NCBI GenBank assembly: GCA_021793235.1
Contig: JAJYTD010000039.1
Coordinates: 1-38,827, forward strand
DNA from: Actinomycetes bacterium
GTDB taxonomy: Bacteria > Actinomycetota > Actinomycetes > Streptosporangiales > Streptosporangiaceae
DNA: 38,827 nt
Reading direction: 5' to 3'
Shown here: positions 3,605 to 29,658 of the stretch, in pieces
How positions within the stretch are numbered: the stretch's first letter is position 1
Layout: each line of letters starts with the position of its first letter
Translations under genes and position numbers: made by a program
Notes under the pieces: generated by a model
What the model saw: only the letters and a program-made list of their open reading frames with translations
Database searches by the model: none
Told to the model about the DNA's origin: nothing

Positions 3605-4183
3605 ATGACCACCACGACCGCGCTGCCGTTCCACGTCGGCCGCGACTATGACGCCGAGATGGCCAGCGACGGGCACAGCCGGTTCGGGCATTACGTCCGC
3701 GAGGCCGTGGCCGCCGACCGCGACCCCTGGGACTCCGACGACGGCCGCGCCGAGTGGGCCGCGCTGGTGTGGCGCGCCGCCACGCCCCCGGTCATGGCGC
3801 CCGGCTACGTCCGGTACCACCACCTGATCCAGGGCGCCCGGCTGTACCGCTCGCAGTGGGACGGCGCGCTGCTGGCGTCGGTGAGCATCGCCACGCCGCC
3901 CCCCGCGCCGCTGACCCGCCTGCGCGACTGGCACGGCTGGCCGACCGAGCTGTCCGGCGGCGAGTACGTCCCGGTCGACCCGTCCGAGCGGCAGGTGAGC
4001 GAGGCGCGCGGCGGGTTCCTGCTGACGGTGACCGAGCTGGCGTTCGCGCTGCCGGAGACCGTGCTGCCCGCGCTGCCCGCGACGCCGGACGCGCCCGGCC
4101 TGGCCCATGACGCCGCCGTGGCGGTCGGTGCCCTGGTGGGCGCGCTCAACGACGCCGTGTCGCCCGTGATCGAGGCCCTGTGA
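3605..4183 (+). CDS. Hypothetical protein upstream of and coupled to the tyrosine recombinase
   Basis: A 192-residue acidic protein with no recognised domain. ATG at 3605 is preceded by a good Shine-Dalgarno (GGAGGGA, ~8 nt spacing). The TGA at 4181-4183 overlaps the ATG of the recombinase gene, so the two are translationally coupled. Visible features are an aromatic-rich centre (YVRYHHLIQ, DWHGWPTEL) and a hydrophobic, Ala/Val-rich C-terminus that is not a clear transmembrane helix. A recombination accessory role is plausible from the coupling but nothing in the sequence proves it. Confidence 0.7.
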   Translation: MTTTTALPFHVGRDYDAEMASDGHSRFGHYVREAVAADRDPWDSDDGRAEWAALVWRAATPPVMAPGYVRYHHLIQGARLYRSQWDGALLASVSIATPPPAPLTRLRDWHGWPTELSGGEYVPVDPSERQVSEARGGFLLTVTELAFALPETVLPALPATPDAPGLAHDAAVAVGALVGALNDAVSPVIEAL

Positions 4184-5268
4184 TGGCCGACGCGCCCCCC
4201 GATGCCGAGCCCGGCGGCGCGCTGGTGGCGGCCGACGTGCCGCTGACCGGCCGTGCCCCGGCCCGCACCGCCCACGAGCTGGCCGACCTGATGCGCGCTC
4301 TGGCGCTGCCGGAGACCGTGCTGGCCCGCACGGCGGCGTGGCTGAGCGGGGAGCGGCGCGCCTCGCCCCGCACCCAGGCCGGGTACGTGCGCGACCTGTC
4401 GTGGTGGCTGGCGTACGCGGCGGCGCGCGGCCTGGACGTGGCCGCCGCCGACCCGGCCGAGGCCGACCTGTACGCCGCCGCGCTGCGTGACGCCGGGCTC
4501 GCCCCCGCCACCAGGGCGCGCCGCCTGTCGGCCGCATCGTCTTGGTACGCCTACCTGACCCGCACCGGCGCGGCCCGCCGCAACCCGTTCGGCGCGGGGA
4601 TGGAGCGGCCCTCGCCGGCGCGGGCCTCGGCGACCCGCGGCCTGTCGGAGGACGAGCTGGGGCGGCTGCTGGCCTATGCCTCGGTGTGGGAGACGCCCAG
4701 AACGTTCGCGCTGCTGGCGGTGATGATCGCCACCGGATGCCGCGTCTCCAGCGTGACCGGCACGACGATCGGGAGCATCGGGCACGACTCGGGGCACACC
4801 GTGATCGACCTGCCGGTCAAGGGCGGGCACACCAAGCGGTTCGTGCTGCCGCCGTTCGCCGCCGCCGCCCTCAACCGCTACCTCGCCGACCGCACTCAAG
4901 CCGGCCCAGTCGACGTCGCCGGCGGCGTTCTGGGGCTCGCACCGGATGCACCCTTGTTCGCCACCCGCACTGGCCGCCCGATCGATCAGCCCTATGTCTT
5001 CCGGCTGATCCGCCGGGTCGCCAAGGCAGCCGGGATCGCACACGCGGGCGTCCTGTCGCCGCACTCGCTGCGGCACTCGGTCGCCACCCTACTGCTCGGC
5101 GGTGGCCACCCACTGCACATCGTGCAGGACTTCCTCGGACACGCAGACCCGCGCACCACCCGCCGCTACGACGCGGGCCGCGAGTCCCTGGACCGGTCGC
5201 CCGCCTATGTCCTCGGCCAGACCCTCGCCGCCAGCGTCACCCGCCACGCTCACACGTACGCTCCTTGA
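4183..5268 (+). CDS. Tyrosine recombinase / integrase (XerC/D-like)
   Basis: The 361-residue protein has the phage-integrase fold: an N-terminal SAM-like core-binding domain (about residues 30-130, including TQAGYVRDLSWWLAYA) and a C-terminal catalytic domain. The full active-site set is visible: R187 (ATGCRVSS), a lysine in the beta-hairpin (VKGGHTKR, K213 or K218), H294-x-x-R297 (PHSLRH), H320 (LGH) and nucleophile Y329 (TTRRYD). It is therefore probably active. It would carry out site-specific strand exchange, either integrating or excising the element or resolving multimers. Unlike many actinomycete elements, no tRNA gene or obvious att core is visible beside it. A lone CRISPR repeat lies 52 bp after its stop. 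Start taken at the ATG overlapping the preceding stop. Confidence 0.9.
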   Translation: MADAPPDAEPGGALVAADVPLTGRAPARTAHELADLMRALALPETVLARTAAWLSGERRASPRTQAGYVRDLSWWLAYAAARGLDVAAADPAEADLYAAALRDAGLAPATRARRLSAASSWYAYLTRTGAARRNPFGAGMERPSPARASATRGLSEDELGRLLAYASVWETPRTFALLAVMIATGCRVSSVTGTTIGSIGHDSGHTVIDLPVKGGHTKRFVLPPFAAAALNRYLADRTQAGPVDVAGGVLGLAPDAPLFATRTGRPIDQPYVFRLIRRVAKAAGIAHAGVLSPHSLRHSVATLLLGGGHPLHIVQDFLGHADPRTTRRYDAGRESLDRSPAYVLGQTLAASVTRHAHTYAP

Positions 5269-5320
5269 GCCTTCCGCAACGGGTGGCCACTGCTGCTCCC
5301 GGCATGTTCTCGGTGACCCT

Positions 5321-5349
5321 GTGCTCCCCGCGCACGCGGGGATGGTTTC
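5321..5349 (+). CRISPR. Solitary CRISPR repeat
   Basis: A single 29-nt copy of the array repeat, identical over the first 26 bases and differing only in the last three (TTC instead of CCC). No second copy lies 61 bp away on either side and the sequence before it lacks the conserved leader motif. It is an orphan repeat, either the relic of a deleted array or a fragment carried by recombination. Confidence 0.85.
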
Positions 5350-5562: not shown

Positions 5563-6117
5563 ATGGGGCCGATGGATATCGAGCACCTGGACGCTGAGGT
5601 CTCACGCGACCGGCTCGGCGAGATTGAGGCGGTGTATACCGAGGCGTTCCCCCACTACGACCTGGCCGACTACCGGGCTCGTATGCAGGGACTGCTCTCC
5701 TCGCCTGGGTTCGAGGCGGTCACCACGCGGCACGAACGCGCGCTGACCGGGTTCTGCTACGGCGCGCCGCTGGCCGCTGGGTCGCGCTGGTGGGACGGCC
5801 TGGTCCCCGCCCCACCTCCCGGCTTCACCACCGAGACCGGGAAACGGACATTCGCCGTGATCGACCTCGCCGTCCGCCCCGCGCATCGGGGCCGGGGCCT
5901 GGCGCGTCGCCTGCTGGACGGCCTGCTTGCGGGCCGAGCCGAGGAGCGGGCCACGTTGGCCGCCGCGCCGGACGAGCACCAGATCCAGGCGATGTATCAG
6001 CGGTGGGGATGGCGGTACGTCGGCCGCACGCCCGGCAACCCAGGAGAGACCGAAGACTGGTTCGACCTCTACGTGATCGCCCTGCGCCCGGCCCCCGAGG
6101 CCAGCAGTTCGGCGTAG
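5563..6117 (+). CDS. GNAT-family N-acetyltransferase
   Basis: A ~184-residue acetyltransferase of the GNAT superfamily. The acetyl-CoA pyrophosphate-binding motif A is clear (LAVRPAHRGRGLARRLL, the Q/R-x-x-G-x-G/A pattern), followed by the usual helix and the C-terminal MYQRWGWRYVG strand motif. It transfers an acetyl group from acetyl-CoA to an amine; the acceptor cannot be predicted. Start is uncertain: ATG at 5563 or ATG at 5572, each with weak ribosome-binding signals. The 3' end overlaps the convergent XRE regulator gene by 49 bp, so the two genes could affect each other's expression through antisense transcripts. Confidence 0.82.
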   Translation: MGPMDIEHLDAEVSRDRLGEIEAVYTEAFPHYDLADYRARMQGLLSSPGFEAVTTRHERALTGFCYGAPLAAGSRWWDGLVPAPPPGFTTETGKRTFAVIDLAVRPAHRGRGLARRLLDGLLAGRAEERATLAAAPDEHQIQAMYQRWGWRYVGRTPGNPGETEDWFDLYVIALRPAPEASSSA

Positions 6118-7367
6118 TCGGCGACGAGGGGTTCGGTGCGGTGGCGCGGCGGGACCGCCTGCTCGACCTGGTGGGCCAGGCTGGTCACCATCACTGTCCG
6201 GTGCTCGTCGGGCTGGGCCTTGTAGACGGCGTGGGCGTGCCGCACACCCTCGGTGGTGTCACCGGCCCGCACGTGCCCGGCGGCGCGCAGCAGCTCAAGC
6301 TGGGCACCGACGCGCGGGTCGTCCTCGGGCAGGACCTGCCTGGCGCGGACAACCGCGGCGTCCAGCGCGTCGCGTTCGGCGGTGTATGCGTGAACCCACG
6401 CTTCGGTGTAGCGCAGCCGGTCCTCGGCCCAGCCGGTAACCGATCGTGCTTCGCCGGTCACCGAGGCAGGCAGGCGTCCGAAGAGTCCCTCGCAGGCCTC
6501 AAGCTCGGCCGTCGCCTCCCGGGCCGCGCCCTCCAGCGCGAGCAACTGCGCGCGGACCGCGTGCACGTGCAGCAGCCCCCGCGACACCCCTTCGGGTGCG
6601 CGGCCGATCACCCGGTCGGCCTTGCGCAGCAGGACCACCGGCGGGCGGCCCTCGTACAGGCCGTGCACGAGCTGCTCGCCACGGACCCATAGAGCCAGGT
6701 CGGTGTCGCGTGAGGCGTCGGCGGCGTGCTGCGCAGTGGCCCACCATTCGCGCGCCAGCCGCGACTGCCCCAGGTTGCACAGCGTCTTGGCCATGAGTGC
6801 GGCCAGGCCGCCGATGACCCGACACCATGCGGGCGGCATCTGGCCTCCGGCACGGCGTCCGGTGACTAGCTGGAGGGTGACCAGGTCGGTGGCCAGATCC
6901 TGCAACAGCGCCTGCGGGGGCTCCAGCACGTAGCTGTAGCCGTACTCGGCCAGCGTCTCCTCCCATTCGTCCAGGTGGGAGGACTCGTCGCGCCCGACGG
7001 CGAAATCGACTCCTTCGCGGATGCGCTGAACGGCCTCGACCGCAGGGGCGGACGCGACGCCGAGCACGGTCAGAGCCTGCAGAAGCCTACGTCGCTGCAT
7101 CTCGTCGTCCTCACCGACAGGAAACACCGTGAAGTCCACGCTACTGGTCTGACCTGGCACTTCGGCCGTTGTCCGGGCGAGGTCAACAAGGCGGCCATCG
7201 GCGTTGAGAATGTCATCGAGCCGTAAGGCCATTTCCTGTGACGGGTTCTTGTGGCCGTGACAGAGCTTGGAGATGTGCCCGGCGTCGCAGGGCACCTGTC
7301 TGGCCAGCGCACGCACGCCGATCTCACGCTCGTTCATGAGCTGGGCCAGCATTTCGCCGAAGGCCAT
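6069..7367 (-). CDS. XRE-family transcriptional regulator with helical (TPR-like) sensor domain
   Basis: A 432-residue regulator. Residues 1-60 form an XRE/Cro-type helix-turn-helix (LARQVPCDAGHISKLCHGHK followed by an arginine/leucine helix). The rest is entirely helical with repeated Ala/Leu-rich hairpins, like the TPR-type sensor parts of large actinomycete XRE regulators. ATG at 7367 is chosen because of its Shine-Dalgarno GGGAAG; the frame is open 23 codons further. It is transcribed divergently from the 7579-13205 cluster, so it is the obvious candidate regulator of that cluster. Its ligand is unknown. The 3' end overlaps the convergent acetyltransferase gene. Confidence 0.85.
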   Translation of the reverse strand: MAFGEMLAQLMNEREIGVRALARQVPCDAGHISKLCHGHKNPSQEMALRLDDILNADGRLVDLARTTAEVPGQTSSVDFTVFPVGEDDEMQRRRLLQALTVLGVASAPAVEAVQRIREGVDFAVGRDESSHLDEWEETLAEYGYSYVLEPPQALLQDLATDLVTLQLVTGRRAGGQMPPAWCRVIGGLAALMAKTLCNLGQSRLAREWWATAQHAADASRDTDLALWVRGEQLVHGLYEGRPPVVLLRKADRVIGRAPEGVSRGLLHVHAVRAQLLALEGAAREATAELEACEGLFGRLPASVTGEARSVTGWAEDRLRYTEAWVHAYTAERDALDAAVVRARQVLPEDDPRVGAQLELLRAAGHVRAGDTTEGVRHAHAVYKAQPDEHRTVMVTSLAHQVEQAVPPRHRTEPLVADYAELLASGAGRRAIT

Positions 7368-7578
7368 CGCTTCCCACCGTTTCGCCCCGGTGCGGATCGT
7401 TATCGATGTTGACCGGGCCGGGCAGCCAACGGACAACGTCTTCCACGCTAACGCCGATTGCGATCAGGTGGAGTGCGAAAGGTGTCGCAGGACACAAGGA
7501 ACAGGCCACAAAGAACGGCCCCGGGCGGTGGGCGAACACCGTGATTCCGGGGCCTGACCGGAATGGAGAGAGCCGGCT
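7368..7578. promoter_or_regulatory. Divergent promoter region with a nested hairpin
   Basis: This 211-bp region separates the XRE regulator from the cluster. Close to the rightward gene there is a nested inverted repeat: outer arms GGCCCCGG (7517-7524) and CCGGGGCC (7547-7554), inner arms CGGTG (7526-7530) and CACCG (7537-7541). It ends about 24 nt before the ATG at 7579 and so would lie in the 5' untranslated RNA or serve as a binding site. A Shine-Dalgarno GGAGAGA precedes the ATG. A transcription attenuator or the XRE operator are both possible. Confidence 0.5.
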
Positions 7579-7914
7579 ATGAGGACCGTACCCGACCAGA
7601 CGCAGCCGCCCCCGGCCTTTGAGGCCCGCCAGGAATCGCAGGACCAGCAGGGCCGCGACCGGCTCGACGCGCTCGGTGCCCACCTGCGGGGCCGGCGTCT
7701 GGTGGTCGCTCTGAACGACGACGGCGGCCTGACCGTGACCGTGTCCGGCGGCGACGGTCACCCGGCGCAGAGCGTCGTCACCTGCCGGCGCCGTCCCTCC
7801 GACAGCGATCGGTACTGGTTCTGGGACGGGACGACGTCGATCACCGAGGCCACACCCGAGCACTTCCCCGATGCCGGCGCCCACATCGCCGCGAACCTGC
7901 ACCGTCTGTCGTGA
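7579..7914 (+). CDS. Small hypothetical protein, first gene of the XRE-linked cluster
   Basis: A 111-residue soluble protein. The central part (RRLVVALNDDGGLTVTV, then DRYWFWDGTTSI) predicts a small beta-rich domain. Such short proteins are common in actinomycetes beside XRE regulators and DUF574 methyltransferases, but the function is unknown. It has a good Shine-Dalgarno and overlaps the next gene by GTGA. The beta-rich pattern with a tryptophan (YRW/YWFWD) is shared in general style with the 9165-9497 product, so the two may be distant relatives. Confidence 0.7.
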   Translation: MRTVPDQTQPPPAFEARQESQDQQGRDRLDALGAHLRGRRLVVALNDDGGLTVTVSGGDGHPAQSVVTCRRRPSDSDRYWFWDGTTSITEATPEHFPDAGAHIAANLHRLS

Positions 7915-8129
7915 CCGGTCCCGCGTTCAGCCAGGAGGAAGAGCTCGCGCAGCTGGCCGCTGACTTCCCCGGATGGAAACTCGCGCGCTCCGGCGGCCGG
8001 CTGGTGGGGACTTGCCTTCCGCTGACCGGTGAGCGTCTGGACCCGCCGGACGGGCGGACCACGGTCACCGCGTCCACGATCCCCGAACTCCGTGCCGCAC
8101 TGGAGCAGGCCAGGAACCTTATCCGCTGA
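7911..8129 (+). CDS. Small hypothetical protein
   Basis: A 72-residue protein starting with GTG at 7911, overlapping the previous stop by 4 bp, so the pair is coupled. The sequence has the pattern FPGWKLARSGGRLVGT, a short beta-hairpin region, and an Ala/Leu helix at the end. Function is unknown. Coding bias is normal for the window. Confidence 0.65.
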   Translation: MTGPAFSQEEELAQLAADFPGWKLARSGGRLVGTCLPLTGERLDPPDGRTTVTASTIPELRAALEQARNLIR

Positions 8130-8202
8130 GACTGCCGAGCTCGCTAGGCCCCAGAGCCTAGCCACAACCGACCAGCGACAACACGCTAGGAACCCCTTTC
8201 CC

Positions 8203-9018
8203 ATGATCGAATCTGAAACCTCCGCCTCGGCGATCGACACCGAGCGCCCGCATGTGGCGCGTGTCTGGAACTACTTTCTGGGCGGCAAAGACCACTACGA
8301 GGTCGACCGCCGGGCCGGCGACGAAACGATGCAGAAGTTGCCCGAGGTCGTGGCGTTGGCACGCCAGTCCCGCGCGTTCCTGGTCCGCGCGGTGTCCTAC
8401 CTCGCAGGGGAGGCCGGGGTCGGCCAGTTCCTCGACATCGGCACCGGGCTGCCCACCCATGACAACACCCACCAGATCGCCCAGCGCGCCAACCCCGAGG
8501 CCCGGATCCTGTACGCCGACAACGACCCGCTGGTCCTGGCGCACGCCCGCGCGCTGCTGACCAGCACGCCCGAAGGCGCGTGCGACTACATCCACGCCGA
8601 CCTGCGCGACCCCGTGCACCTCATCCGGCAGGCCGAGGAGCTCTTGGACTTCTCCCGGCCGGTGGCGGTCACGCTGATGGGCATCCTGGAGTTCATCCCC
8701 GACCAGGCCCAGGCCGTCCAGATCGTGGACCACCTGCGGTCCCGGCTGTGCCCCGGCTCCTACATCGCGCTGTACGCCACCACCGACCACGTCAACGGGG
8801 AACGGGTGCGCCAGGCCGTGCAGCTGTGGAACCAGTCGGCCCCGGCACCGATGACGATCCGCACCATCGACCAGATCGCCGAGCTGCTGCGCGGACTGCG
8901 GCTGATCGAACCCGGCCTGGTCCCGATGCACCAGTGGCGCCCATTCCGCCCCGACGCGCTCGGACCACCGGTCGACGCCTACGCCGGCGTCGGCATCGTC
9001 CCCGCCCGCGGCTGCTAA
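8203..9018 (+). CDS. SAM-dependent methyltransferase, DUF574/Methyltransf_19 family
   Basis: A 271-residue protein with the family's N-terminal signature (ARVWNYFLGGKDHYEVDR) and SAM-binding motif I (FLDIGTGLPT), followed by an acidic loop after strand 2 (ILYADNDPLVLAHA) that would hold the ribose of SAM, and MGILEFIPD as motif IV. These are soluble class I methyltransferases very abundant in actinomycetes, often next to XRE regulators; substrates are mostly unknown. ATG at 8203 follows AGGAA by ~10 nt. Its place in the cluster suggests a methylation step on whatever product or nucleotide the kinase, NUDIX and radical SAM proteins act on. That is an inference. Confidence 0.88.
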   Translation: MIESETSASAIDTERPHVARVWNYFLGGKDHYEVDRRAGDETMQKLPEVVALARQSRAFLVRAVSYLAGEAGVGQFLDIGTGLPTHDNTHQIAQRANPEARILYADNDPLVLAHARALLTSTPEGACDYIHADLRDPVHLIRQAEELLDFSRPVAVTLMGILEFIPDQAQAVQIVDHLRSRLCPGSYIALYATTDHVNGERVRQAVQLWNQSAPAPMTIRTIDQIAELLRGLRLIEPGLVPMHQWRPFRPDALGPPVDAYAGVGIVPARGC

Positions 9019-9164
9019 CCCCTCTTCTTCTCCTAGACCTCGCCCGGCCGGGCTTCCCCCAGAAGCCACGGACCCCGCCCCCTGGACCGGCCTCCTCGGT
9101 TTCCCCTGCCCGGCCGGGCGAGCCCCTTCCGCCCGCCGACCCTACGAGCACAGAAAGACACTCC

Positions 9165-9497
9165 GTGTCCGGTTCTCCTCTTCCGCTGCGGCCTTACCGG
9201 TGGGGCCCGCTGGACGCCCTGCACAGCGCGTTGCGGCGCCGTCTCCCGCAGGTGCTGGTGAGTCACGTCCGGGCGGCGTCGCCTGCATACGTCCGCGTCA
9301 CCTACCGCGACGCCGGCCCCGCCGACCTGACCTACGACCCCGACATCGGCGAATACCGGTGGACCGCCGGCGCCGACCCGGACGCGCAGGTCGGCGGCCC
9401 CGACGACCTGGAGGAAGCCCTCCGCGTCATCGCCGAGCGCCTGGGCGCCACGCTGGCCCCGCCACCCACCGAGCACCCCCTTGGAGGAGACCGATGA
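9165..9497 (+). CDS. Small hypothetical protein
   Basis: A 110-residue protein starting with GTG at 9165. It has an Arg/Leu-rich N-terminal helix, a beta-rich middle (YVRVTYRD, TYDPDIGEYRW) and a C-terminal helix (EEALRVIAERLGATL). No domain assigned. A long open frame extends upstream through the methyltransferase but is a shadow of it. The stop overlaps the next start as ATGA, so translation is coupled. The beta plus terminal-helix layout resembles the other small proteins of this cluster. Confidence 0.65.
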   Translation: MSGSPLPLRPYRWGPLDALHSALRRRLPQVLVSHVRAASPAYVRVTYRDAGPADLTYDPDIGEYRWTAGADPDAQVGGPDDLEEALRVIAERLGATLAPPPTEHPLGGDR

Positions 9498-9744
9498 CCC
9501 AGAACCTGCGGTCTGTCGCACTGCACGCAATCGACCCCGATGGCCGCATGCGGACCGTCGAAGACGACCTGCCCCTGCCGGAAGTCCGCGCCCTGCGCAA
9601 GCAGGTCAGGGACGTCGAGACCGGTCCTCACCGCCTGGAGCCGGTGATCCCCCGGTTGGGCCGCAAGCCCGCATCGTCGGCCGGGCGGCCACCGAACGCG
9701 CCACCGCCGAGCTGCTGGAGGTGATCGGGGACTCCCTCGACTAG
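9494..9744 (+). pseudogene. Small protein gene interrupted by a frameshift
   Basis: Starting at ATG 9494 (ATGA overlap with the previous gene) the frame gives a plausible protein (MTQNLRSVALHAIDPDGRMR..., a LRKQVRDVET helix) up to about base 9640, then drifts into Pro/Ser-rich low-quality sequence and ends at 9724. In a second frame the sequence continues as ARIVGRAATERATAELLEV and ends at 9744, which looks properly coded. Adding one base in the C5 run near 9650 would join them into one ~83-residue protein. It is either a genuine one-base deletion or a sequencing error in a homopolymer. Function unknown; it is the last gene before a strong hairpin. Confidence 0.6.
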
Positions 9745-9767
9745 CGGCCCCGGCGTATCAGAGCCCC

Positions 9768-9801
9768 GCGGCCCAGGCCAGCAGGCGCGCGCCTGGGCCG
9801 C
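9768..9801 (+). terminator. GC-rich hairpin, likely terminator or attenuator
   Basis: A perfect 11-bp inverted repeat (GCGGCCCAGGC at 9768-9778, GCCTGGGCCGC at 9791-9801) with a 12-nt loop lies 23 bp after the frameshifted gene and about 60 bp before the glycosylase gene. There is no U-tract, as often in high-GC actinomycetes. It may split the cluster into two transcripts or only reduce read-through. Confidence 0.6.
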
Positions 9802-9860
9802 AGCACCAGACCTTGCGGTGAACCCACCCGCAAGCAGTCCCCGAGGGGAGGATGCTCCGC

Positions 9861-10634
9861 ATGACCTACGTGCTACGCGACAACCCCGGCTGGGACCGCA
9901 TCGGCGGCAGGTGGCTGCGCGCCACCGTCAGCAGCGGCGGCGACGGCCTCGTCGTCCTGACCGACGATGCCGAGGACCTGTCCGCCATGGACGTCTTCCA
10001 CGCCCCCGCCCAGTGGCCGGGCACCGTGCCGCCCGCCTTGGCGGACGCGTTGACCGGCGTCGGGACGGTGGCGCGGTTAGCCACTCCCAGCCTGTGGGAC
10101 GCGATCGCCACCGCGATCATCCGGCAGGTCATCCGCGCTGACCAGGCCCGCCTTCAGCACCAGCGGTTCCGCCGCCAGTACGGCCCCGCCGTCCAGACCA
10201 GCGCCGGCCCCCTGCACGCCCTCCCTTGCGCCGACACCGTCGCTGGTCTGCAGTGCGAGGACTTCCGCCGGCTCGGCATGGCGTTCAAAGCCGACGCGCT
10301 CCGCAACGCCGCCGTCGCCTACCTCGACCACCACACCAAATGGGCGGAACTGGCGCCCCGCCGCCTGGTGGAGGAGCTGCAGAACGTCCCGCGTATCGGG
10401 CCGTGGACCGCCGGCGCCGCTGTTGCCGACCACACCCACGACTGGTCGCTGTACCCGCACGGGGACCTGGCGGTCCGCACCTGGGCCAAGGCCGCTGCCC
10501 CTGATGTCGACTGGCCCACCACCGAACCGCAGTTCGCCGAGCGGTGGCGCACCATCACCGGCCCCTGCCTCGGCCTGGCCACCCTGTTCACTCTCGCCTG
10601 GGGAGCCCACCATGCAGAAAACGCCGACCCCTGA
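9861..10634 (+). CDS. HhH-GPD DNA glycosylase-like protein (AlkA-type)
   Basis: A 257-residue protein with hallmarks of the AlkA/HhH-GPD family. LWDAIATAIIRQVIRADQA matches the opening helix of the glycosylase core, NVPRIGPWTAG (about residues 175-185) is the helix-hairpin-helix, and YPHGDLAVRTW contains the aspartate (D202) in the position of the catalytic acid. Members excise alkylated or unusual bases from DNA. The N-terminal ~85 residues are a beta-rich domain (VLTDDAEDLSAMDVF). ATG at 9861 is preferred over 9852 because GGGGAGG is then 9 nt upstream. It overlaps the radical SAM gene by 23 bp. A broken copy of the first ~50 codons lies at 29488-29658. In this cluster it could act on a modified base rather than in general repair. 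Confidence 0.8.
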   Translation: MTYVLRDNPGWDRIGGRWLRATVSSGGDGLVVLTDDAEDLSAMDVFHAPAQWPGTVPPALADALTGVGTVARLATPSLWDAIATAIIRQVIRADQARLQHQRFRRQYGPAVQTSAGPLHALPCADTVAGLQCEDFRRLGMAFKADALRNAAVAYLDHHTKWAELAPRRLVEELQNVPRIGPWTAGAAVADHTHDWSLYPHGDLAVRTWAKAAAPDVDWPTTEPQFAERWRTITGPCLGLATLFTLAWGAHHAENADP

Positions 10635-12069
10635 CCTGCTGCAAGGGCACGACCCCGCCCACACCTTGGACGCGGTGTTCGTCAACGCGCCGCTGCGCGA
10701 CTACGCCGACCGGCCCCGCGTCAACGATTACACCCTGCCCACCCTCGGCATGGCCTACATCGCCACCGTCGCCCGCGCCGCCGGATTCAACGTCGCGGTC
10801 CTGGACGCCGAAGCGCACGGCCTGCCCGTCAGCGACGTCGTCACCGTCCTCAACACCGCCGCGCCCCGCTGGGTCGGGTTCAACCTGTTAGCCCCGACCT
10901 ACCGCATCTCCGCGCACATCGCCGACCGGCTCGACCACGCCATCAAGGTGATGGCCGGCGGGCACCAGGCCAAGGCGATGCCCACCCAGATCCTCACCGA
11001 CCCGCGGATGCGCCGCTGTCACGCGCTCGTGCTCGGCGAGGCCGAGACCCGTGTCGCCGCCCTGCTGGACGACCACCGGCGCCGTACCGAACTTCCCGGC
11101 GTGATGTGGATGGACCCCGTCCTGCACCGTCCCGTCACCGGCGGCGTCCCCGGCAGCGGTCACCACCTCGCCCCCGACATCGACGCCCTCCCGTTCGTGG
11201 ACAGGCGGTTCCTGGCCCAAGACCCCTACACCTCGGCGGGCCGGGTCGAGGCGAACATGGTCGGGGCCCGCGGCTGCCCCTACGACTGCTCATTCTGCGG
11301 CGCCGCGGTGTCGGCCAACCCCGACATCACGATCCGTACCCGCACCCCAGACAACATCATCGAAGAGATGACCCGGCTCTGGCAGCAGCAGGGCGTCACC
11401 GCGTTCCGGTTCGTCGACGACCTGTTCCTGGGCGCCCGCCGCATCATCGACCAGATGGCACGCGCGTTCACCGCCGCCGGCATCGGGTCGTGGGCCGTGT
11501 GGGACGCAACCGGACGCATCAACGTCCTGCACCGGCTTCCCGACACCACCTTGGACCAGCTCGCCGACAACGGCCTGCGCGAGGTCGCGCTCGGCATCGA
11601 ATCGGGCAGCGAACGCATCCTCGCCCACATCGACAAACGCATCACCCCCGCCATGGTCCGGTCGGTGGTGCGCCGCCTGACCGAACGCGGCATCGGCGTC
11701 AAGGGCTACTTCATCCTCGGACTGCCCACCGAGACCCACGCCGACCTCGCCCAAACGGTCGACCTGGTGCACCGGCTGTGGGACCTGACCGACCCGTTGC
11801 CGGGCCGGTTCCGCGCCAGCGTGTTCGAGTTCCGCCCCTACCCCGGCACCCCCGAATGGGACCGGCTGATGGCCACCGGCCGCTACAGCCCCGAACAGCT
11901 CATGGACTACACCGCCGTCGACCTGACCGACGCCGGCGAGGCGATGCGCAGCCGCGACGAGTTCAACTTCTCGGTCAACCTGCAGTTCGGCGAACCCACC
12001 CTCCCCCAGATCCGCGCCGCGCTGGTCGACCTGACCCACCAGCAGCACACCCGCGAGACCACCTCATGA
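10612..12069 (+). CDS. B12-binding-type radical SAM protein
   Basis: A 485-residue radical SAM enzyme. The N-terminal ~190 residues have the cobalamin-binding-like Rossmann arrangement common in class B radical SAM proteins (TLGMAYIATVARAAGF, AVLDAEAHGL, WVGFNLLAPTYR, VMAGGHQA). The catalytic domain carries the [4Fe-4S] motif C222-PYD-C226-SF-C229, followed by a TIM-barrel-like region (ALGIESGSERILAHIDK, GYFILGLPTET) typical of this class. Such enzymes use SAM to start radical chemistry such as C-methylation, methylthiolation or ring rearrangement. It shows no classical DxHxxG B12 motif, so cobalamin use is uncertain. It is coupled to the next gene by ATGA. The substrate is unknown; neighbours suggest a nucleotide or nucleoside. 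Confidence 0.88.
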   Translation: MQKTPTPDLLQGHDPAHTLDAVFVNAPLRDYADRPRVNDYTLPTLGMAYIATVARAAGFNVAVLDAEAHGLPVSDVVTVLNTAAPRWVGFNLLAPTYRISAHIADRLDHAIKVMAGGHQAKAMPTQILTDPRMRRCHALVLGEAETRVAALLDDHRRRTELPGVMWMDPVLHRPVTGGVPGSGHHLAPDIDALPFVDRRFLAQDPYTSAGRVEANMVGARGCPYDCSFCGAAVSANPDITIRTRTPDNIIEEMTRLWQQQGVTAFRFVDDLFLGARRIIDQMARAFTAAGIGSWAVWDATGRINVLHRLPDTTLDQLADNGLREVALGIESGSERILAHIDKRITPAMVRSVVRRLTERGIGVKGYFILGLPTETHADLAQTVDLVHRLWDLTDPLPGRFRASVFEFRPYPGTPEWDRLMATGRYSPEQLMDYTAVDLTDAGEAMRSRDEFNFSVNLQFGEPTLPQIRAALVDLTHQQHTRETTS

Positions 12070-12680
12070 ACCGCGGGCTGCTCATCACCCTGGACGGGCC
12101 CGGCGGCTCCGGTAAGAGCACGCTCGCCCGCGCGATCACCACCCGGCTCCTCCAGGCCGGGATCCCCGCCGAGCACACCGCACAACCCTCGCCCGGGCCG
12201 ATCGGCGCGCTGGCCCGCGCCGGCACCTACCACTTCCACGGGTACGCGCTGGCGTGCCTGGTCGCCGCCGACCGCTACCACCACCTCGACACCTTCATCC
12301 GGCCCGCCCTCGCGGCGGGAACCACCGTCATATGCGACCGGTACACGCCGTCCTCGCTGGTGTTCCAAGCCCTCGACGGCGTCGAGCAGTCCTTCATCAC
12401 CCACCTCAACTCCCGCGCCGAACCTCCCGACCTGGCGGTCTTCCTCACCTGCGATGAGGCCGAACTCCGCCGCCGGCTGGCGGCCCGCGGCTCACACGGA
12501 CGTTTCGAAGACGACCCCGCCATCTCCGCTGAAGAGACCACCCGTTACCGCGCCGTTTCCGCTCTGTACGCCCGCCAAGGAGTGCCCCTCCTGAAACTCG
12601 ACGCCACCACGACCAGTACCGATTCACTCGCACACCAAGTGGTCGCCGCCGCATCAGCGCTACCCTCAGCCCCGTTCTGA
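12066..12680 (+). CDS. Thymidylate kinase-like nucleotide kinase
   Basis: A 204-residue P-loop kinase. Residues 11-18 are the Walker A motif (GPGGSGKST). CDRYTPSSLVFQ is the DR(Y/F) motif with the following S and Q of dTMP kinases, and LAVFLTCDEAELRRRL matches the strand and helix before the lid. The lid (RGSHGRFEDD) is arginine-poor. This family phosphorylates dTMP with ATP, but since the chromosome must encode the housekeeping enzyme, this copy may act on a modified nucleoside monophosphate. ATG overlaps the previous stop. It sits between the radical SAM and NUDIX genes. Confidence 0.85.
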   Translation: MNRGLLITLDGPGGSGKSTLARAITTRLLQAGIPAEHTAQPSPGPIGALARAGTYHFHGYALACLVAADRYHHLDTFIRPALAAGTTVICDRYTPSSLVFQALDGVEQSFITHLNSRAEPPDLAVFLTCDEAELRRRLAARGSHGRFEDDPAISAEETTRYRAVSALYARQGVPLLKLDATTTSTDSLAHQVVAAASALPSAPF

Positions 12681-12710
12681 CCCGCACCCACGGGCCCGGA
12701 AAGGGGCGCA

Positions 12711-13205
12711 ATGGCCGACCGTTACCGATCCATCGTGGACGTCCACGTCATCCTCGAACGCGGCGACGAGATCCTGCTGCTGGAACGCCAGAGCACCGGC
12801 TACTGCGACGGCATGCTCCACTTGCCCTCCGGCCACCTGGATGAAGGCGAACCGGCCCACCACGGTGCCGCACGCGAAGCACGCGAGGAAGTCGGGGTCG
12901 ACATCGACCCCGGCGACCTGGTCCTGGCGACCGTCGTCCATCACCGCCAGAACACCGACCTCGCCCGGGTCGGGTTCTTCTTCGCCACGACCTGCTGGGC
13001 CGGAGAGCCCCGCAACGCCGAACCCCACAAGTGCAGCAAGCTCCAATGGTGCGACCCACGCGTCCTGCCGTCCAACACCATCGACTACCCCGCGACCGGT
13101 ATCCGCGCCTACCTGGCCGGCGTCCCGTTCACCGCCCACGGCTGGGACCACTACAGCGCAGGCCACGCTGTCCGGGCCCAGCCAACAGATCCGATGGGAA
13201 GGTGA
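12711..13205 (+). CDS. NUDIX hydrolase
   Basis: A 164-residue protein with a complete NUDIX box: GHLDEGE, then seven residues, then REAREEVGV (matching GX5EX7REUXEEXGU). The hydrophobic strands before it (VDVHVILERGDEILLLERQ) and the LPSGH entry are typical. NUDIX enzymes cleave nucleoside diphosphate-X bonds, and some act on modified nucleotide triphosphates. ATG at 12711 follows GGGGCG weakly; the frame is intact to 13205. Being the last gene of the cluster, it fits a role in removing or tailoring a modified nucleotide with the kinase upstream. The specificity is unknown. Confidence 0.9.
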   Translation: MADRYRSIVDVHVILERGDEILLLERQSTGYCDGMLHLPSGHLDEGEPAHHGAAREAREEVGVDIDPGDLVLATVVHHRQNTDLARVGFFFATTCWAGEPRNAEPHKCSKLQWCDPRVLPSNTIDYPATGIRAYLAGVPFTAHGWDHYSAGHAVRAQPTDPMGR

Positions 13206-13600: not shown

Positions 13601-13690
13601 CGGCAGCTGATGGCCTACGCACGGCACTTCACCCGCCCGCGGCCCTACATACGTCGCGACCCCGGCCATGCTGGCGGCATGGCCGCATCC
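13601..13690 (+). pseudogene. Fragment related to the 30424-30837 gene
   Basis: The bases from about 13601 to 13690 translate to LMAYARHFTRPRPYIRRDPGH then AGGMAAS, clearly related to LMAYARRFTRPRPYPLRDLGE/AGGMSAS of the intact gene at 30424-30837, and the DNA matches too. Only the middle ~30 codons survive; no start or stop in a sensible place. It is a relic of a second copy of that gene lying downstream of the intact nucleotide cluster. Confidence 0.7.
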
Positions 13691-13937
13691 TGGTGGGTCA
13701 GGCCGGTGGATCGGGCGCGATCCGGGGGCACGCTGCCCCCGGACCCCCTGCGGGCCGGAGGGCACGCCCGCGCGGATCTGTCTGTCACACCGTCTCACCG
13801 TTCGCGCGGGCGCACCCTCCGGAACGCGTGCGTGAAGATCACGCTTCTGCATGACCTTCCAACCTGGGCCGGTTCGCATCCGATGCGATACGACGTGGCC
13901 ATCGACAGGGGGCAGGGGGCAGGGGGGCAAGATAGGC

Positions 13938-14022: not shown

Positions 14023-14048
14023 GCGCTTCGCTGGAAGGGCGGTTGCCG

Positions 14049-14471
14049 GTGTCGGACGGGGAGGCGGAGTCGGGCGTGAAGGACGGCGGCCGCAGAGCCG
14101 CGCGGCAGCGGCGGCAGCCAGGTGGGCGTTCGTACAAGCACACCGTGCGGTTATCGGAGCAGGAGCAGTTGCACATTGCCGCGCGGGCGATGGGCGCGGG
14201 GGTGAGCGTGCCGCGGCTGCTGGTCGAGTCCGCGCTGGCCGGAGACGCCCAGACGGCGAGTGAGCGGCGGGCCCTGGTGGCCGAGTTTTTGGGGACGCGC
14301 CGGCTCTTGGCAGCGGTGAGCAACAACGTCAACCAGTTGGCTGCGGCGGCGAACGCGACAGGCGAGGTGCCGCCCGAACTGAATGCGACGCTGCATGCGG
14401 TCGCGCGGGTGACCGCGCGCCTGGACGCGGTGGTGGCCGACCTGACCGGCGTGCCGCAGAGGAAGCGGTGA
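14049..14471 (+). CDS. MobC-like relaxosome protein
   Basis: A ~140-residue basic protein with features of the MobC/relaxosome family: a basic N-terminus (RRAARQRRQPGGRSYKHTVRLSEQE), a ribbon-helix-helix-like segment, and the characteristic NNVNQLAAAANATGE near residue 95. MobC proteins bind oriT and help the relaxase open and nick it. The start is uncertain: GTG at 14049 or TTG at 14043, with GGAAGG upstream. The stop overlaps the relaxase start by 4 bp (GTGA), showing they are made together, as is usual for mobC and mobA pairs. Confidence 0.8.
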   Translation: MSDGEAESGVKDGGRRAARQRRQPGGRSYKHTVRLSEQEQLHIAARAMGAGVSVPRLLVESALAGDAQTASERRALVAEFLGTRRLLAAVSNNVNQLAAAANATGEVPPELNATLHAVARVTARLDAVVADLTGVPQRKR

Positions 14472-15934
14472 ACAACTTCATCGTCCCCAAGCGCGGGGAC
14501 AAGACGACCCCGCTCGTGCTGTACCTGTTCGGGCCGGGGCGAGCCAATGAGCACCGGGATCAGCGGGTCATCGCGGCGGACGGGACGCTTGGCATCGCCG
14601 ACGGAACCGAACTGGACATCAACGACCCGGGCGACCGCGCCGAGATCATGGCGTTGGCCGCGCAGATGGATGCGCACCGCAAGGCGATGGGCGTCCAGAT
14701 GCCCGGTGGTCATGTGTGGCATTGCGCGATCTCGCTTCCGCCCGGAGAGAAGCTGACCGATGCGCAGTGGGCTGAGGCAGCGCGGACGGCGATCTCCGCG
14801 ATGGGGTTCGACGACTCCTCCGGCCGGGCGCCGTGCCGGTGGCTCGCGGTCTACCACGGCCCGTCTCTCAAGGGGAACGAGCACATTCATCTCGCCGTGA
14901 ACCTCGTACGGGAGGACGGCACGTTCGCCACCATCTGGCGGGACCGCAAGACGATGAGCCGGGTGTGCGCGGAGCTGGAACGGCGGTTCGGGTTGAGCGT
15001 AGTCCACGGCCGAGCCGGCGCGGGCATGCCGGGACTGAGCCGGGCCGAGATCGAACGGGCGGCGCGGGAAGGAGCGGCCGAGCCTGACCGGATCCGCCTG
15101 GCGCGCATCGTTCGCGGGTGCGCCGCCGCGGCGAGGACCGAGGCCGATTTCGTCCAGCGGCTGCGACGCGCGGGAGTGATGGTCCGGCCTCGATACGCTC
15201 CGGGCGGACAGACGCGCGTGGTCGGGTACTCGGTGGCGTTGCGCGAACCCGCCGGCGCACCGGGCCGCAGCGGGACGCGTGTGTGGCTTGGAGGCGGACG
15301 GTTGGCCCGCGACCTGACGCTGACGCGGCTGCGTGAGCATTGGAAGACCTCGCCGCAGCTGGAAGCAGAAGCGGTTGCGGAGTGGTCGCGGCGTCGTGGT
15401 TCGCAGATGCCGCGCTCGGCGGCGTACCGGGCCAACAGCTGGGAGCAGGCCGCGGCCGTGGTCAACCGGGTTCGTCGCGAGCTGGCCGCGGTTCCGCCGG
15501 ACGCCGGCGCGGTGTGGGCGGGTGCGGCCAGGGAGGCCGCCGGTGTGCTCGCGGTGTGGTCGATGCGGTTGGAGGTGCACCGTCCCGGGCCGCTGGCGGC
15601 CGCCGCCGACGCGCTGGCACGGTCGGCGCAGACCCCCATCGGTGCGCCCCGGGCCTGCCGAACCGGACGGCTCCGGGACATGCGAGGTGTGGCGATGGTG
15701 GCGTCGGCGGCGGACGCCGGCGCGGGCGAGCGGATGCTGATGCGTCAGCTCATCCGGCTCATCGAGACGATCGCCGACATGCACCAGGCGCGAGGGCAGG
15801 CACGGCAGGCCGCCGCTCTTGCCGCCGCTGCCCGCACAGAGCTTGCGCGAGTCCAGATGTACCGCGCAGAGCCGATCACCGCAGGACCACCTCCCTTCAC
15901 CTCGCCCCGCCCAGATCGCGGCATCGGTCGCTGA
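14468..15934 (+). CDS. Relaxase / mobilisation protein (MOBP, MobA/VirD2-like)
   Basis: A 488-residue protein starting with GTG at 14468. The N-terminal half holds the relaxase core: a candidate catalytic tyrosine near residue 19 (LVLYLFGPGR), the WHCAISLPPGE strand, and the HxH metal motif in GNEHIHLAVNLV that coordinates the divalent ion. The C-terminal part (from ~residue 210) is helical and positively charged, probably for DNA or coupling-protein contacts. It nicks oriT, stays attached to the 5' end and is led to the VirD4/TraG protein (32769-34535) for transfer. Actinomycete relatives of this relaxase are common on plasmids and integrative elements. Start and length are normal for the family. 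Confidence 0.85.
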   Translation: MNNFIVPKRGDKTTPLVLYLFGPGRANEHRDQRVIAADGTLGIADGTELDINDPGDRAEIMALAAQMDAHRKAMGVQMPGGHVWHCAISLPPGEKLTDAQWAEAARTAISAMGFDDSSGRAPCRWLAVYHGPSLKGNEHIHLAVNLVREDGTFATIWRDRKTMSRVCAELERRFGLSVVHGRAGAGMPGLSRAEIERAAREGAAEPDRIRLARIVRGCAAAARTEADFVQRLRRAGVMVRPRYAPGGQTRVVGYSVALREPAGAPGRSGTRVWLGGGRLARDLTLTRLREHWKTSPQLEAEAVAEWSRRRGSQMPRSAAYRANSWEQAAAVVNRVRRELAAVPPDAGAVWAGAAREAAGVLAVWSMRLEVHRPGPLAAAADALARSAQTPIGAPRACRTGRLRDMRGVAMVASAADAGAGERMLMRQLIRLIETIADMHQARGQARQAAALAAAARTELARVQMYRAEPITAGPPPFTSPRPDRGIGR

Positions 15935-18009: not shown

Positions 18010-21000
18010 GTGACGGAGACACAGGACGCACGGTTCCGCCCTGAAGGGCAGGACGATCTCGCGCCGTCCGGGTCGCTGGCGCGTGTCCGGGCCAACCTGG
18101 AGGCGATCCGCCTCGTCCGCGCGCTCGACGAGGAGAAACGGCCAGCCACCAGGGCTGAGCAGCAGGTCTTGGCGCGCTGGTCGGGCTGGGGCGCCGTCCC
18201 TGCCGTGTTCGACGAGCGTGAGACCGTCGACGGACGCCCTGGGCCCGGTGTCCGTTACGAGTGGGCGCGTGAGGAGCTGCGGCGGCTCCTGTCCCCCGAC
18301 GAGTACGAGAGCGCCCGCGCCAACACCGTCAACGCCCACTTCACCGATGCCGGACTGGTCACCGCGATCTGGGACGGGCTCGGCGAGCTGGGGTTCGCCG
18401 GTGGCCGGGTGCTGGAGCCGGGGTGCGGGAGCGGCAACTTCATCGGCATGGCCCCGCCAGGCACCGACATGGTCGGCGTCGAGCTGGATCCCACCACGGC
18501 GGCGATCGCCTCGGCGCTGTACCCGCATGCGACGATCCGCAGCGAGAGCTTCGCCGCGACGCGGCTGTCCGAAGGATCGTTCGACGCGGTCATCGGCAAC
18601 GTCCCGTTCGGCTTCATTCAGCTGCGCGACCTGCGCTACAACCCTGGCCGCCGCCTGCCCATCCACACGCACTTCGTCCTGAAGTCCCTGCACCTGGTCG
18701 CACCAGGCGGCATGGTCGCGCTCATCACCTCGCGTTTCACCATGGACGGCACTACGGACGCTGCCGTGAGGGCCCGCGAACGGATGGCCGCGATGGCCGA
18801 TCTGGTCGCCGTCGTCCGGCTGCCCGATACCGCGCACCGTCGCGCCGCCGGCACGAGCGTGGTGACCGACCTGCTGATCCTGCGGCGGCGTGAGCCCGAC
18901 CGTGCACCGGACGGCGTGGCATGGGTCAACACCCCCGTCCGCCAGGTGGACGGCGAGGACATCGCGATCAACGAGTACTTCGATGCCCACCCGGAGATGG
19001 TGCTGGGCACCCTGGCGGCCAGCGGACGCCGAGAAGGGGAACTGAAGGTGGTCGGCGCCGCCGACGCGGCACCCGACCTCGTCCGGGCCCTCACCGGCGC
19101 CGCGGCGCAGGCGCGCGAGCGGAACCTGCTCATGGCGCCGTCCCCGGCCGCAGACCCCGCCACCGAACACCCCCCAGCGGTTCCAGCGGAGACTGGAGGC
19201 CGCCCCGAGTGGGTCGAGGGCTACATCGCCGCGAATGATGACGGCACCTTCACCCAGATCCAGGACGGCTTCATCGAGCCGTACGAGCCGCCCAGGATGT
19301 CGGCGGCCGAGGCCGAGGAGCTGCGGGCACTGTGCGGGCTGCGCGACACCACGCTGGCGCTGCTGGAGGCCGAAGCGCGCAACGACGAGCCGGAGATGGA
19401 CCGGCTCCGCGCCCAGCTCAACGAGCGATACGACCGCTACCTGGAGCGGTACGGGCCGGTCAACCGGGTCAGCCTGCACCCACGGATCCGCGACACCCCC
19501 GAAGGCCAAGCGCTGCGCGACCGGCTGCTGGCCGACGGCCACGCCCGCATCGCCGGCGGAACCTTCACCCTGACCGGAGACCCCGCCGAGGCCGCCGCCC
19601 TCCGTGCACGTCTCCTGAACGAGGGCCTGGCCGTCGAAGCCCCGAACGGTGAACTGCGGATGCGGCAGAGCCGCGCGGCCCGAGCCGAACGCGACCGCCT
19701 GGTGGCCGCCGGACGCGCCGAGGTCCACGGCGGCACCTTCAAGATGACGGACGAGGGCCAGACGATCGCGCTGGACGCAGGCCCCGCCGCGGTCTCGGTC
19801 ACCCGCCGCCGTCCCCGACAGGGCGGATTCCGCAGCGACCCGTTCGCGGTGCGAGTCCAAGGGCTGGAGCGATACTCGGCGCCGACTCAGACCGCCACCA
19901 AGACCGACATCTTCCGGCAGCCGGTCATGCCCGCGAGGTCGGTGCCGCGCTCTGCCGACACACCCGCTGACGCGCTGGCGATCTGCATGGACCAGCACGC
20001 CCAGGTCCGCCTGGACGTCATCGCCGGCCTCCTGGGAGTGGAGGAGCAGACCGCCCGCGAGCGGCTCGGCGACCTGGTGTTCCACGACCCCGAGCAGGAC
20101 CGGCTGGTACCCGCCGCCGAGTACCTGTCGGGCGATGTGCGGGCCAAGCTCAAACTGGCGACCGCGGCCGCCATCGACGACCCGGCCCTGCGTGCCAACG
20201 TCGATGCGCTCACCAAGGTGATCCCGGAGGACCTCGGGCCGGCCGAGATCGAGGTCCGGCTCGGCTCGGTGATCGTGGATGCCGACCACGTCCAGCAGTT
20301 CCTGCGCGAGACCCTGCAGGACGACACGATCCGCGTGTCACTGAGAGCCGACGGCGAGTGGAAGGTCCACGGCGGCCCACGCGGCGGTGTCCTGTCCACC
20401 TCCACATGGGGTACCGAGCAAGCCCCGGCGGTCTTCCTGGCCGAGCACCTGCTGAACCAGCGCGCCATCAAGGTCCACAAGAAGGTCGACAAGGCCACCG
20501 TGCTGGACGAGGAGGCCACCGAGGCCGCGCAGAGCAAGGCCGAAGAACTCAACGAGCGGTTCGGCGAATGGATCTGGGAAGACCTGGACCGCGCCGAGAA
20601 GATCGTCCGCCGCTACAACGACACCTTCAACTCGATCGTGCTGCGCAGCTACGACGACGTCGAGCTGTCACTGCCGGGCCTGAACCGCAACATCCGGCTG
20701 CACTGGTGGCAGAAGGCCGCCGTCGCCCGCATGATCGCCGAACCGGCGGTTGGGCTGTTCCACGACATGGGCGCCGGGAAGACCCTTGAGCAGATCATCG
20801 GCATGATGGAGCTGCGCCGGCTCGGCCTGATCAACAAGCCGGTCATGTGCGTGAAGAACCACATGCTCGAACAGGTCCGCGACGAGTTCATGTGGGCCTA
20901 CCCGTCCGCCCGGGTACTGTGCGCCGACAGCGACGAACTCGCCGGCGAGGGCAAGCGCCGCTTCATCGCCCGCTGCATGTCCGAGAATCCGGACGCGGTC

Positions 21001-28602: not shown

Positions 28603-28721
28603 CTTGCCTGAAAACCGCACAGACCCCCGTTAGGCAAGCGCTAACCTGGAGTCCGAAATGTCGGAATCTCACAAAGTGCTCCAAAACAAGGCTCCTCGCC
28701 GATAAACCCGCAGGTCAGCCA
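28603..28721 (+). promoter_or_regulatory. Leader of CRISPR array 2 (possibly bidirectional)
   Basis: The part from about 28648 to 28721 matches the leader of array 1: AAGTGCTCCAAA, then CGATAAACCCGCAGGTCAG directly before the first repeat. Lying between divergent repeat sets, it may drive both. The giant gene stops at 28410; the bases from 28411 to 28512 show no gene or clear terminator. Confidence 0.8.
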
Positions 28722-29487: not shown

Positions 29488-29658
29488 GAACCCCGCCAGC
29501 AGTCTCCAGGGGAGGATGCTCCGCATGACTTATGTGATACGCGACAACCTCGGCTGGGTCCGCCTCGGCGGCAAGTAGCTGCACGCGACCACCACCAGCA
29601 GCGGCGAAGACATCGTCGTCCTGACCGACGATGCTGAGCACCTGTCCGCCATGGACGT
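29488..29658 (+). pseudogene. Truncated copy of the HhH-GPD glycosylase gene
   Basis: This stretch matches the start of the intact glycosylase gene including its upstream GGGGAGG ribosome-binding site and ATG (29525). Codon 18, a TGG in the intact gene, is TAG here (29576-29578). Resemblance continues in frame (VVLTDDAEHLSAMDV) to 29658, then stops abruptly. The copy begins 6 bp after the last CRISPR repeat. The gene is dead, and the remaining ~200 codons are missing. Confidence 0.9.

Follow-up and report, generated by a model that had tools for sequence, protein, structure and literature searches.

A mobile gene cassette joining a putative AlkA/OGG1-type DNA glycosylase to a B12-binding radical SAM enzyme in soil actinobacteria, their phages and plasmids

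The question raised by the stretch of DNA analysed here (hereafter the window), which spans 38,827 bases on contig C18 in the 4.8-Mb genome of an Actinomycetes bacterium of the Streptosporangiaceae, is whether a run of same-direction genes, most of them for enzymes of apparently nucleotide-directed chemistry, constitutes a single pathway, and what such a pathway might be for. The original prediction treated the whole interval 6069-13205, a divergent XRE-type regulator included, as one cluster for making and policing a modified nucleotide. All the genes it named are present, and the conserved unit consists only of the last four same-direction genes (9852-13205, forward strand), namely those for a 260-residue HhH-GPD glycosylase-like protein (9852-10634), a 485-residue B12-binding radical SAM protein (10612-12069), a 204-residue kinase resembling deoxythymidine monophosphate (dTMP) kinase (12066-12680) and a 164-residue MutT-like NUDIX hydrolase (12711-13205). 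We propose, with a probability of roughly 0.45, that in this cassette the radical SAM enzyme and the kinase make a nucleotide analogue from which the NUDIX hydrolase and the glycosylase would shield the host, the whole serving in conflict with other genetic elements.

The linkage of these genes was followed across 38 loci, comprising the window, a second copy in the same genome (L035), 14 loci from other sampled genomes (L036-L048, L076), three from other genome contigs (L049-L051), phage SF3 (L052), ten plasmid loci (L053-L062) and eight further viral contigs (L077, L078, L080-L085). Thirteen plasmid records hold a cassette match, and ten were examined, with H5, H11 and H12 left out; L079 duplicates the phage of L052 and does not enter the locus counts, and the near duplicates L081/L082 and L041/L042 were counted separately. 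Every one of the 35 loci that retain the 5' end of the radical SAM gene has the glycosylase gene immediately before it, as shown by tblastn for 34 of them and for the last (L084) by a contig that begins with the final 15 glycosylase codons. In the three remaining loci the 5' end is missing, either at a contig end (L076) or because only the 3' part is present (L051 and L062). The kinase gene is found in 33/38 loci, being cut by the contig end in L049, displaced beside a fragment in L044 and placed first in L050, and a NUDIX gene of the window type is found in 24/38. Far from being scattered in other genomes, the genes thus recur in the same order in tens of loci, and the co-occurrence of radical SAM, kinase, NUDIX and glycosylase genes on which the original prediction depended holds as a unit. 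Because five loci lack an intact kinase, the glycosylase and the radical SAM enzyme form its core; the kinase and a pyrophosphohydrolase often accompany them but may disappear or be replaced.

The same pairing is seen at the scale of whole genomes. Among 394 genomes of the class, strong matches to the helix-hairpin-helix (HhH) protein (E<1e-40) occur in 14 and strong matches to the radical SAM protein (E<1e-60) in 14, with 13 in common; the exceptions are one genome (G363) in which the HhH gene precedes a broken radical SAM gene (L048) and another (G276) in which the radical SAM gene runs into a contig end (L076). A further 35 of the 394 genomes hold only weaker HhH matches (E 1e-6 to 1e-3). 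Viral contigs yielded no match to the single window radical SAM protein and 62 loci when searched with an alignment of the family. Nine of these are close relatives, eight with all four genes and the ninth (L084) beginning inside the glycosylase gene, and none of the 53 remote loci shows more than one of the four families at E<=1e-5. The genome of the window carries its second complete copy on contig C80 (L035), whose glycosylase, radical SAM, kinase and NUDIX proteins share 47, 71, 55 and 76% identity with those of the window, and whose DNA is 72% identical across 2.5 kb.

In the window, the glycosylase and radical SAM genes overlap by 23 nt and the radical SAM and kinase genes by 4 nt, and the kinase and NUDIX genes are 30 nt apart. 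With start codons chosen by script, the 4-nt overlap of radical SAM and kinase genes is present in 27 of 32 entries, and the glycosylase and radical SAM genes either overlap by 17-47 nt or are separated by 0-12 nt. The distances of the four proteins are correlated in all six pairwise comparisons (r 0.70-0.88, 20-31 loci per pair, L079, L042, L082 and short proteins excluded), and none of 999 permutations reaches the observed value in any of them, a pattern that fits transfer as one unit and to which host relatedness also contributes. Ratios of nonsynonymous to synonymous substitution rates (dN/dS) lie between 0.10 and 0.74, and hence below 1, in all ten locus pairs tested, indicating purifying selection; the kinase has the highest ratio in several pairs, reaching 0.74.

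The cassette is carried by phage SF3, by the eight further viral contigs, by the 13 plasmid records and by chromosomes, and the annotated phage and plasmid records examined name its glycosylase a hypothetical protein. In the radical SAM tree, phages L080 and L081 are mixed with plasmid L056, the prophage-like L077 and L085 fall with Nocardia abscessus, and viral L078 is placed in the group to which the second copy of the window genome belongs. Taken together, these patterns of conservation show that the four genes are one mobile functional unit travelling among the phages, plasmids and chromosomes of soil actinobacteria. Four phages or prophages have lysis-type genes on one side of the cassette and an integrase gene on the other: in SF3 it comprises gp35-gp38, adjoining the integrase gp39 and following the lysis genes gp22-gp23 and regulators; in L080 an amidase gene lies upstream and a tyrosine integrase gene downstream; and L077 and L085 have upstream integrase genes, of the tyrosine and serine types, and a GH25 lysozyme gene downstream. 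The site between lysis genes and integrase is a usual home of prophage accessory genes, and this placement would speak for a trait expressed in the lysogen.

The predicted properties of the four proteins bear on what such a trait could be. The window HhH protein matches no Pfam family at E<=0.1 and has no match in PHROGs, and PF00730 (HhH-GPD) is detected in five of 17 relatives, the best at 6.5e-4, the only other Pfam matches at E<=0.1 being two weak ones of one member each. A profile of the family searched against the PDB recovers AlkA-type glycosylases (best E-value 1.6e-8). An AlphaFold model built from 10 sequences (pLDDT 88.4) adopts the three-domain AlkA/OGG1 fold, with a helix-hairpin-helix and an accompanying Asp, and among the matches listed it aligns with OGG1, MBOgg1 and Archaeoglobus AlkA over 241-252 of its 260 residues (Z 19-20.5). 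The AlkA-type active site of the window protein includes a GPWTA motif, Trp185 and Asp205. Gly183, Trp185 and Asp205 are present in all 34 sequences compared (in this and the other residue counts SF3 enters twice, as L052 and L079, and L082 and L084 are left out), and the Asp, which we take to be the catalytic one, aligns with the AlkA-type Asp segment. Trp185 stands where bifunctional glycosylases have their lysine, and for that reason a monofunctional enzyme is expected. The cassette protein is thus a putative AlkA/OGG1-type DNA glycosylase, sharing with known members the full fold (Z ~20), the HhH and the presumed catalytic Asp, but differing from them in its sequence (13-18% identity in the structural alignments listed) and in standing beside a radical SAM gene in every examined locus that holds it. 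The original prediction had cast this protein as a means of self-protection, a role with which its invariant putative catalytic residues are compatible.

The radical SAM protein combines a B12-binding domain (PF02310) with a Radical_SAM domain (PF04055), both above the Pfam cut-off, and its CxxxCxxC motif is intact in 33/33 sequences. Members of a 14-member alignment are 59-84% identical to the window protein. The nearest of three named relatives found is from Actinomadura rubrisoli (84%), which makes a related actinomycete the probable host. All matches to named B12 families fall far below their cut-offs, the best being ApyD (106 vs 750 bits), and the PDB matches include 9ccb and AprD4 (E 3e-15) and TokK (1e-5).

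The cassette kinase exceeds the cut-off of the dTMP kinase family TIGR00041 (90.3 vs 83.25 bits) and has Thymidylate_kin as its best Pfam match, as a bacterial dTMP kinase would, but its pocket residues (V66, F100) and its position 10 (D10) are not those of the housekeeping thymidylate kinase (TMK) that the same genome encodes on contig C88, and the change is family-wide. Position 10 is Asp in 31/31 cassette kinases and Glu in the housekeeping TMK, position 66 is Val in 30/31 (Tyr in L044) and Tyr in the housekeeping enzyme, and position 100 is Leu, Met, Val or Phe in 31/31 and Tyr in the housekeeping enzyme. Because tyrosines are replaced at positions 66 and 100, which in TMK structures contact the base and deoxyribose, the substrate of the cassette kinase is probably not plain dTMP.

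The fourth protein belongs to the NUDIX family (PF00293, 56.4 bits), and a strict NUDIX box is present in 21/23 cassette NUDIX sequences. A pyrophosphohydrolase-type gene accompanies the cassette in many loci, with an identity that varies: plasmid pSITFR-21c has a MazG-like gene in the NUDIX place (PRA-PH, 3e-4), nine chromosomal f17 loci (L037-L040, L041, L042, L044-L046) have a convergent gene for a CYTH-type protein beside the cassette, and five chromosomal f17 loci have a second NUDIX gene beside the regulator, one member each of the CYTH-type and second-NUDIX clusters (c4 and c9) having been checked against Pfam. This exchange of enzymes within and around the NUDIX slot strengthens the nucleotide theme of the original prediction. 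In several f17 loci the CYTH-type gene (12209-12820 in L041) overlaps the end of the kinase gene.

These properties suggest a scheme in which the B12-binding radical SAM enzyme would rebuild a nucleotide or nucleoside, by methylation or by rearrangement of its sugar or base; the altered dTMP-kinase-like enzyme would raise the product to the diphosphate, and the host nucleoside-diphosphate kinase would form its triphosphate. This triphosphate would act as a poison when invading phages or other elements copy their DNA. In the host, the NUDIX hydrolase, or a nearby MazG-like, CYTH-type or other NUDIX enzyme, would cut surplus triphosphate, and the glycosylase would excise the analogue's base if it were incorporated into host DNA, while a divergent HTH/TPR regulator may restrain the unit.

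Known systems provide partial precedents for this scheme. Prokaryotic viperins, which are radical SAM enzymes without a B12 domain, occur with associated nucleotide kinases; the cassette likewise places a radical SAM gene next to that of a nucleotide kinase and invites the idea of a small-molecule nucleotide, but its enzyme has a B12-binding domain and a DNA glycosylase partner. Membership in the viperins was ruled out on account of the B12-binding domain and of PDC-M51A being the only PADLOC match at E<=0.01. Two reports describe the B12 radical SAM enzymes OxsB and AlsB as turning deoxynucleotides into nucleoside analogues (PMC13331322, PMC7074753). In these systems, OxsB/OxsA for oxetanocin A and AlsB/AlsA for albucidin, the B12 radical SAM enzyme has a phosphate-handling or a second radical partner, and the cassette differs from OxsB/OxsA in having a glycosylase, a kinase and a NUDIX hydrolase in place of the HD phosphohydrolase. 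In the clone table of the albucidin report, a gene for thymidylate kinase appears within a few genes of the two radical SAM genes albA and albB (PMC7074753).

No earlier description of the cassette was found in PADLOC, or among the papers listed by literature searches, where only open-licence papers were covered and the negative is weak evidence; the available parts of PMC7159879 contain no such cassette, and in the passages on phage SF3 available from the open-licence literature the mention concerns its TerL. The nearest PADLOC models are PDC-M51B, matched by the cassette kinase (6.2e-12), and PDC-M51A, matched by the radical SAM protein over its core only (1.3e-6, 25.5 bits). A strict search for PDC-M51A (E<=1e-40) recovered one of 246 genomes, and the genome of the window has no match at that threshold; the PDC-M51A-matching locus (4.1 kb) has no TMK-like open reading frame (ORF) among ORFs of at least 120 residues, and PDC-M51 was not found in the open-licence literature. 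Membership in PDC-M51 was ruled out, the matches being weak and partial and none covering PDC-M51A at full length.

Several observations weigh against an analogue-making cassette of this kind. The function of the cassette is predicted from its genes. The PADLOC matches (PDC-M51A/B, VakA, mad8, PDC-S07) are weak, partial or generic. Nucleotide chemistry is attributed to the radical SAM enzyme by analogy only, because OxsB is not listed among its PDB profile matches at E<=0.1. Of the 38 loci, 5 lack an intact kinase: in L038 and L040 a remnant survives from which the middle is gone, and in L043, L048 and L076 no kinase was detected. Whole-genome searches found no cassette-type kinase elsewhere in the genomes of L038 (G198) and L040 (G324) at E<=1e-15, and the genome of L043 (G088) holds only a weaker match, of 92 bits, at a different place. 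Since the glycosylase and radical SAM genes remain under purifying selection after kinase loss (dN/dS 0.17 and 0.18 in the L038/L040 comparison, where the kinase is broken), a scheme that requires the kinase is weakened, and host kinases could stand in where it has been lost. Furthermore, the window-type NUDIX is absent from 14/38 loci (in L049 the contig ends before its position), and the radical SAM gene is found in 11/35 sampled chromosomal f17 genomes, a frequency that fits a metabolic or repair trait as well. Lastly, the integrase-side placement is not universal, given that the next large gene beside the L083 cassette is that for a portal protein, and that the matches listed around L078, L081 and L083 include no integrase.

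The alternative that best survives is a system of lesion repair and pool cleaning, in which the glycosylase would excise one particular damaged base, left for instance by a DNA-alkylating antibiotic, the radical SAM enzyme reverse or process the lesion, the NUDIX hydrolase clear the damaged nucleotide from the pool and the kinase refill it, the whole spreading as a resistance trait. We consider it unlikely. AlkA-type glycosylases and MutT-like NUDIX hydrolases are families of repair and sanitation, and carriage on plasmids and phages would suit a resistance trait. On the other hand, the kinase pocket is unlike that of the housekeeping dTMP kinase, and in each of the 14 genomes (of 394) with a strong HhH match the radical SAM gene, whole or in remnants, is present too, a constancy that counts against repair because a lone repair glycosylase should be useful by itself. 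Moreover, we know of no B12 radical SAM enzyme in DNA repair.

A second alternative keeps the analogue and reverses the part played by the glycosylase. In this 'poison and excise' arrangement, the radical SAM enzyme and the kinase would load the rapidly replicating DNA of the invader with an unnatural nucleotide, the glycosylase would strip its base to leave abasic, breaking DNA, and the NUDIX hydrolase would keep the nucleotide pool harmless in uninfected cells. We hold it to be doubtful, a shade more so than lesion repair.

Less probable again is a DNA modification system, in which a modified base would be made for the element's own DNA against restriction, with the HhH protein acting at the DNA level. 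Carriage by phages and plasmids would favour it, as would the L083 cassette, which lies by the portal-protein gene and not by an integrase. Phage thymidine hypermodification (HMUDK, aGPT-PPlase) pairs a kinase with glycosylase-fold proteins, but the Pfam families of that pathway gave no match among the 17 HhH proteins at E<=0.1, whose hits are HhH-GPD (five) and the two weak one-member matches already mentioned, nor did they displace Thymidylate_kin as the best match of the window kinase. The putative active site of the glycosylase is intact, and no conserved gene for clearing the normal base from the pool was seen in the loci inspected. That a phage would use the cassette to modify its own DNA in the lytic cycle is likewise disfavoured by the place of the cassette in the four (pro)phages described above, which is on the integrase side and away from replication genes.

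Slightly less probable still is a small biosynthetic cluster that would include its own resistance gene and yield, for secretion, a nucleoside antibiotic akin to oxetanocin or albucidin. The hosts are actinomycetes, and genes for ABC transporters follow the NUDIX gene in L053 and lie at a distance of some kilobases in L038, L041, L042 and L047; oxetanocin is itself made by a B12 radical SAM enzyme with a phosphohydrolase, from genes reported to lie on a plasmid (PMC7074753, PMC13331322). Secretion is less likely, however, since the four genes have no conserved transporter as an immediate neighbour, the ABC genes being near five loci only, and phage carriage and the absence of OxsB from the PDB profile matches also count against it. 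The weakest alternative, that the glycosylase is itself a base-excision restriction weapon, with the remaining genes marking the DNA of the host or protecting it, is very improbable: such enzymes exist, according to one report (PMC10273834), and the glycosylase is present in all 35 loci with a radical SAM start, but the terms AlkA, HhH and helix-hairpin-helix do not occur in the main text of that report, and the conserved partner here is a radical SAM enzyme and not a DNA methyltransferase.

The remaining genes of the interval 6069-13205 do not share the conservation of the cassette. The divergent XRE-type HTH protein (HTH_31, PF13560; 6069-7367, reverse strand), a likely operon regulator with a similarity to the NsdA family that is below the family cut-off, and four small ORFs on the forward strand (7579-7914, 7911-8129, 9156-9497 and 9494-9724) have no homologue in the other 37 loci (tblastn, E<=1e-4). 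At the same threshold, the S-adenosyl methyltransferase (PF04672; 8203-9018, forward strand) has a homologue in 2/37, as does a GNAT neighbour; its family has 12 matches in the genome of the window, and it is probably a neighbour only. The XRE protein, the methyltransferase and the small ORFs were ruled out as pathway parts, so that of the single pathway originally envisaged the last four genes stand and the methyltransferase and small genes fall away. Divergent HTH and/or TPR proteins recur upstream of the cassette in ten Pfam-checked loci (L036, L037, L039, L040, L041, L043, L054, L061, L077 and L085), mostly through matches below cut-off and with TPR only in L037 and L043, but no close homologue of the window regulator is found among them (tblastn, E<=1e-4).

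Beyond this interval, the surroundings of the cassette in the window have the gene content of a mobile element. A tyrosine integrase gene (4180-5268, forward strand) would belong to the element carrying the cassette; a NikA/MobC-like protein and a MobA/VirD2-type relaxase are encoded downstream (14043-15934, forward strand), as is a TraG/VirD4-type coupling protein (32769-35009). Between them lies the gene for a methylase-helicase of 3466 residues (18010-28410), methyltransferase-like in its N-terminal part and with UvrD-type helicase motifs, which the GajB and mad2 models match in part. An 86-base repeat of 80% identity (13606-13691 and 30660-30745) flanks the relaxase and methylase-helicase genes, and a tRNA search of the window for an attachment site found none. 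A CRISPR-type array at 28698-29482 contains 13 copies of GTGCTCCCCGCGCACGCGGGGATGGTCCC at 61-base spacing, the last copy being slightly different, and its repeat units also occur at 1-134, on the opposite strand, and once at 5318-5349. Directly 3' of the array, at 29492-29658 on the forward strand, is an 87% copy of 9827-9994, consisting of the 5' flank of the cassette and glycosylase codons 1-48 with an in-frame TAG, which suggests that the array probably once had a cassette copy beside it.

The genes overlap in an operon short enough for cloning as a single fragment, of which SF3 gp35-gp38 is a natural phage version, and with it one can test directly whether the glycosylase is the immunity factor or the weapon that goes with a tailor-made nucleotide. 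Should the cassette yield a new nucleoside analogue, that compound would be of interest as an antiviral lead, like the products of viperins and oxetanocin. To our knowledge, B12 radical SAM enzymes and base-excision glycosylases are not known to act together, and gene content suggests that in these loci they are obligate partners. Should the glycosylase turn against loaded invader DNA, the pair would be a weapon in itself and not a weapon with its shield, which would be categorically new, and the temperate phages, plasmids and integrative elements that exchange the cassette would be doing so as rivals.

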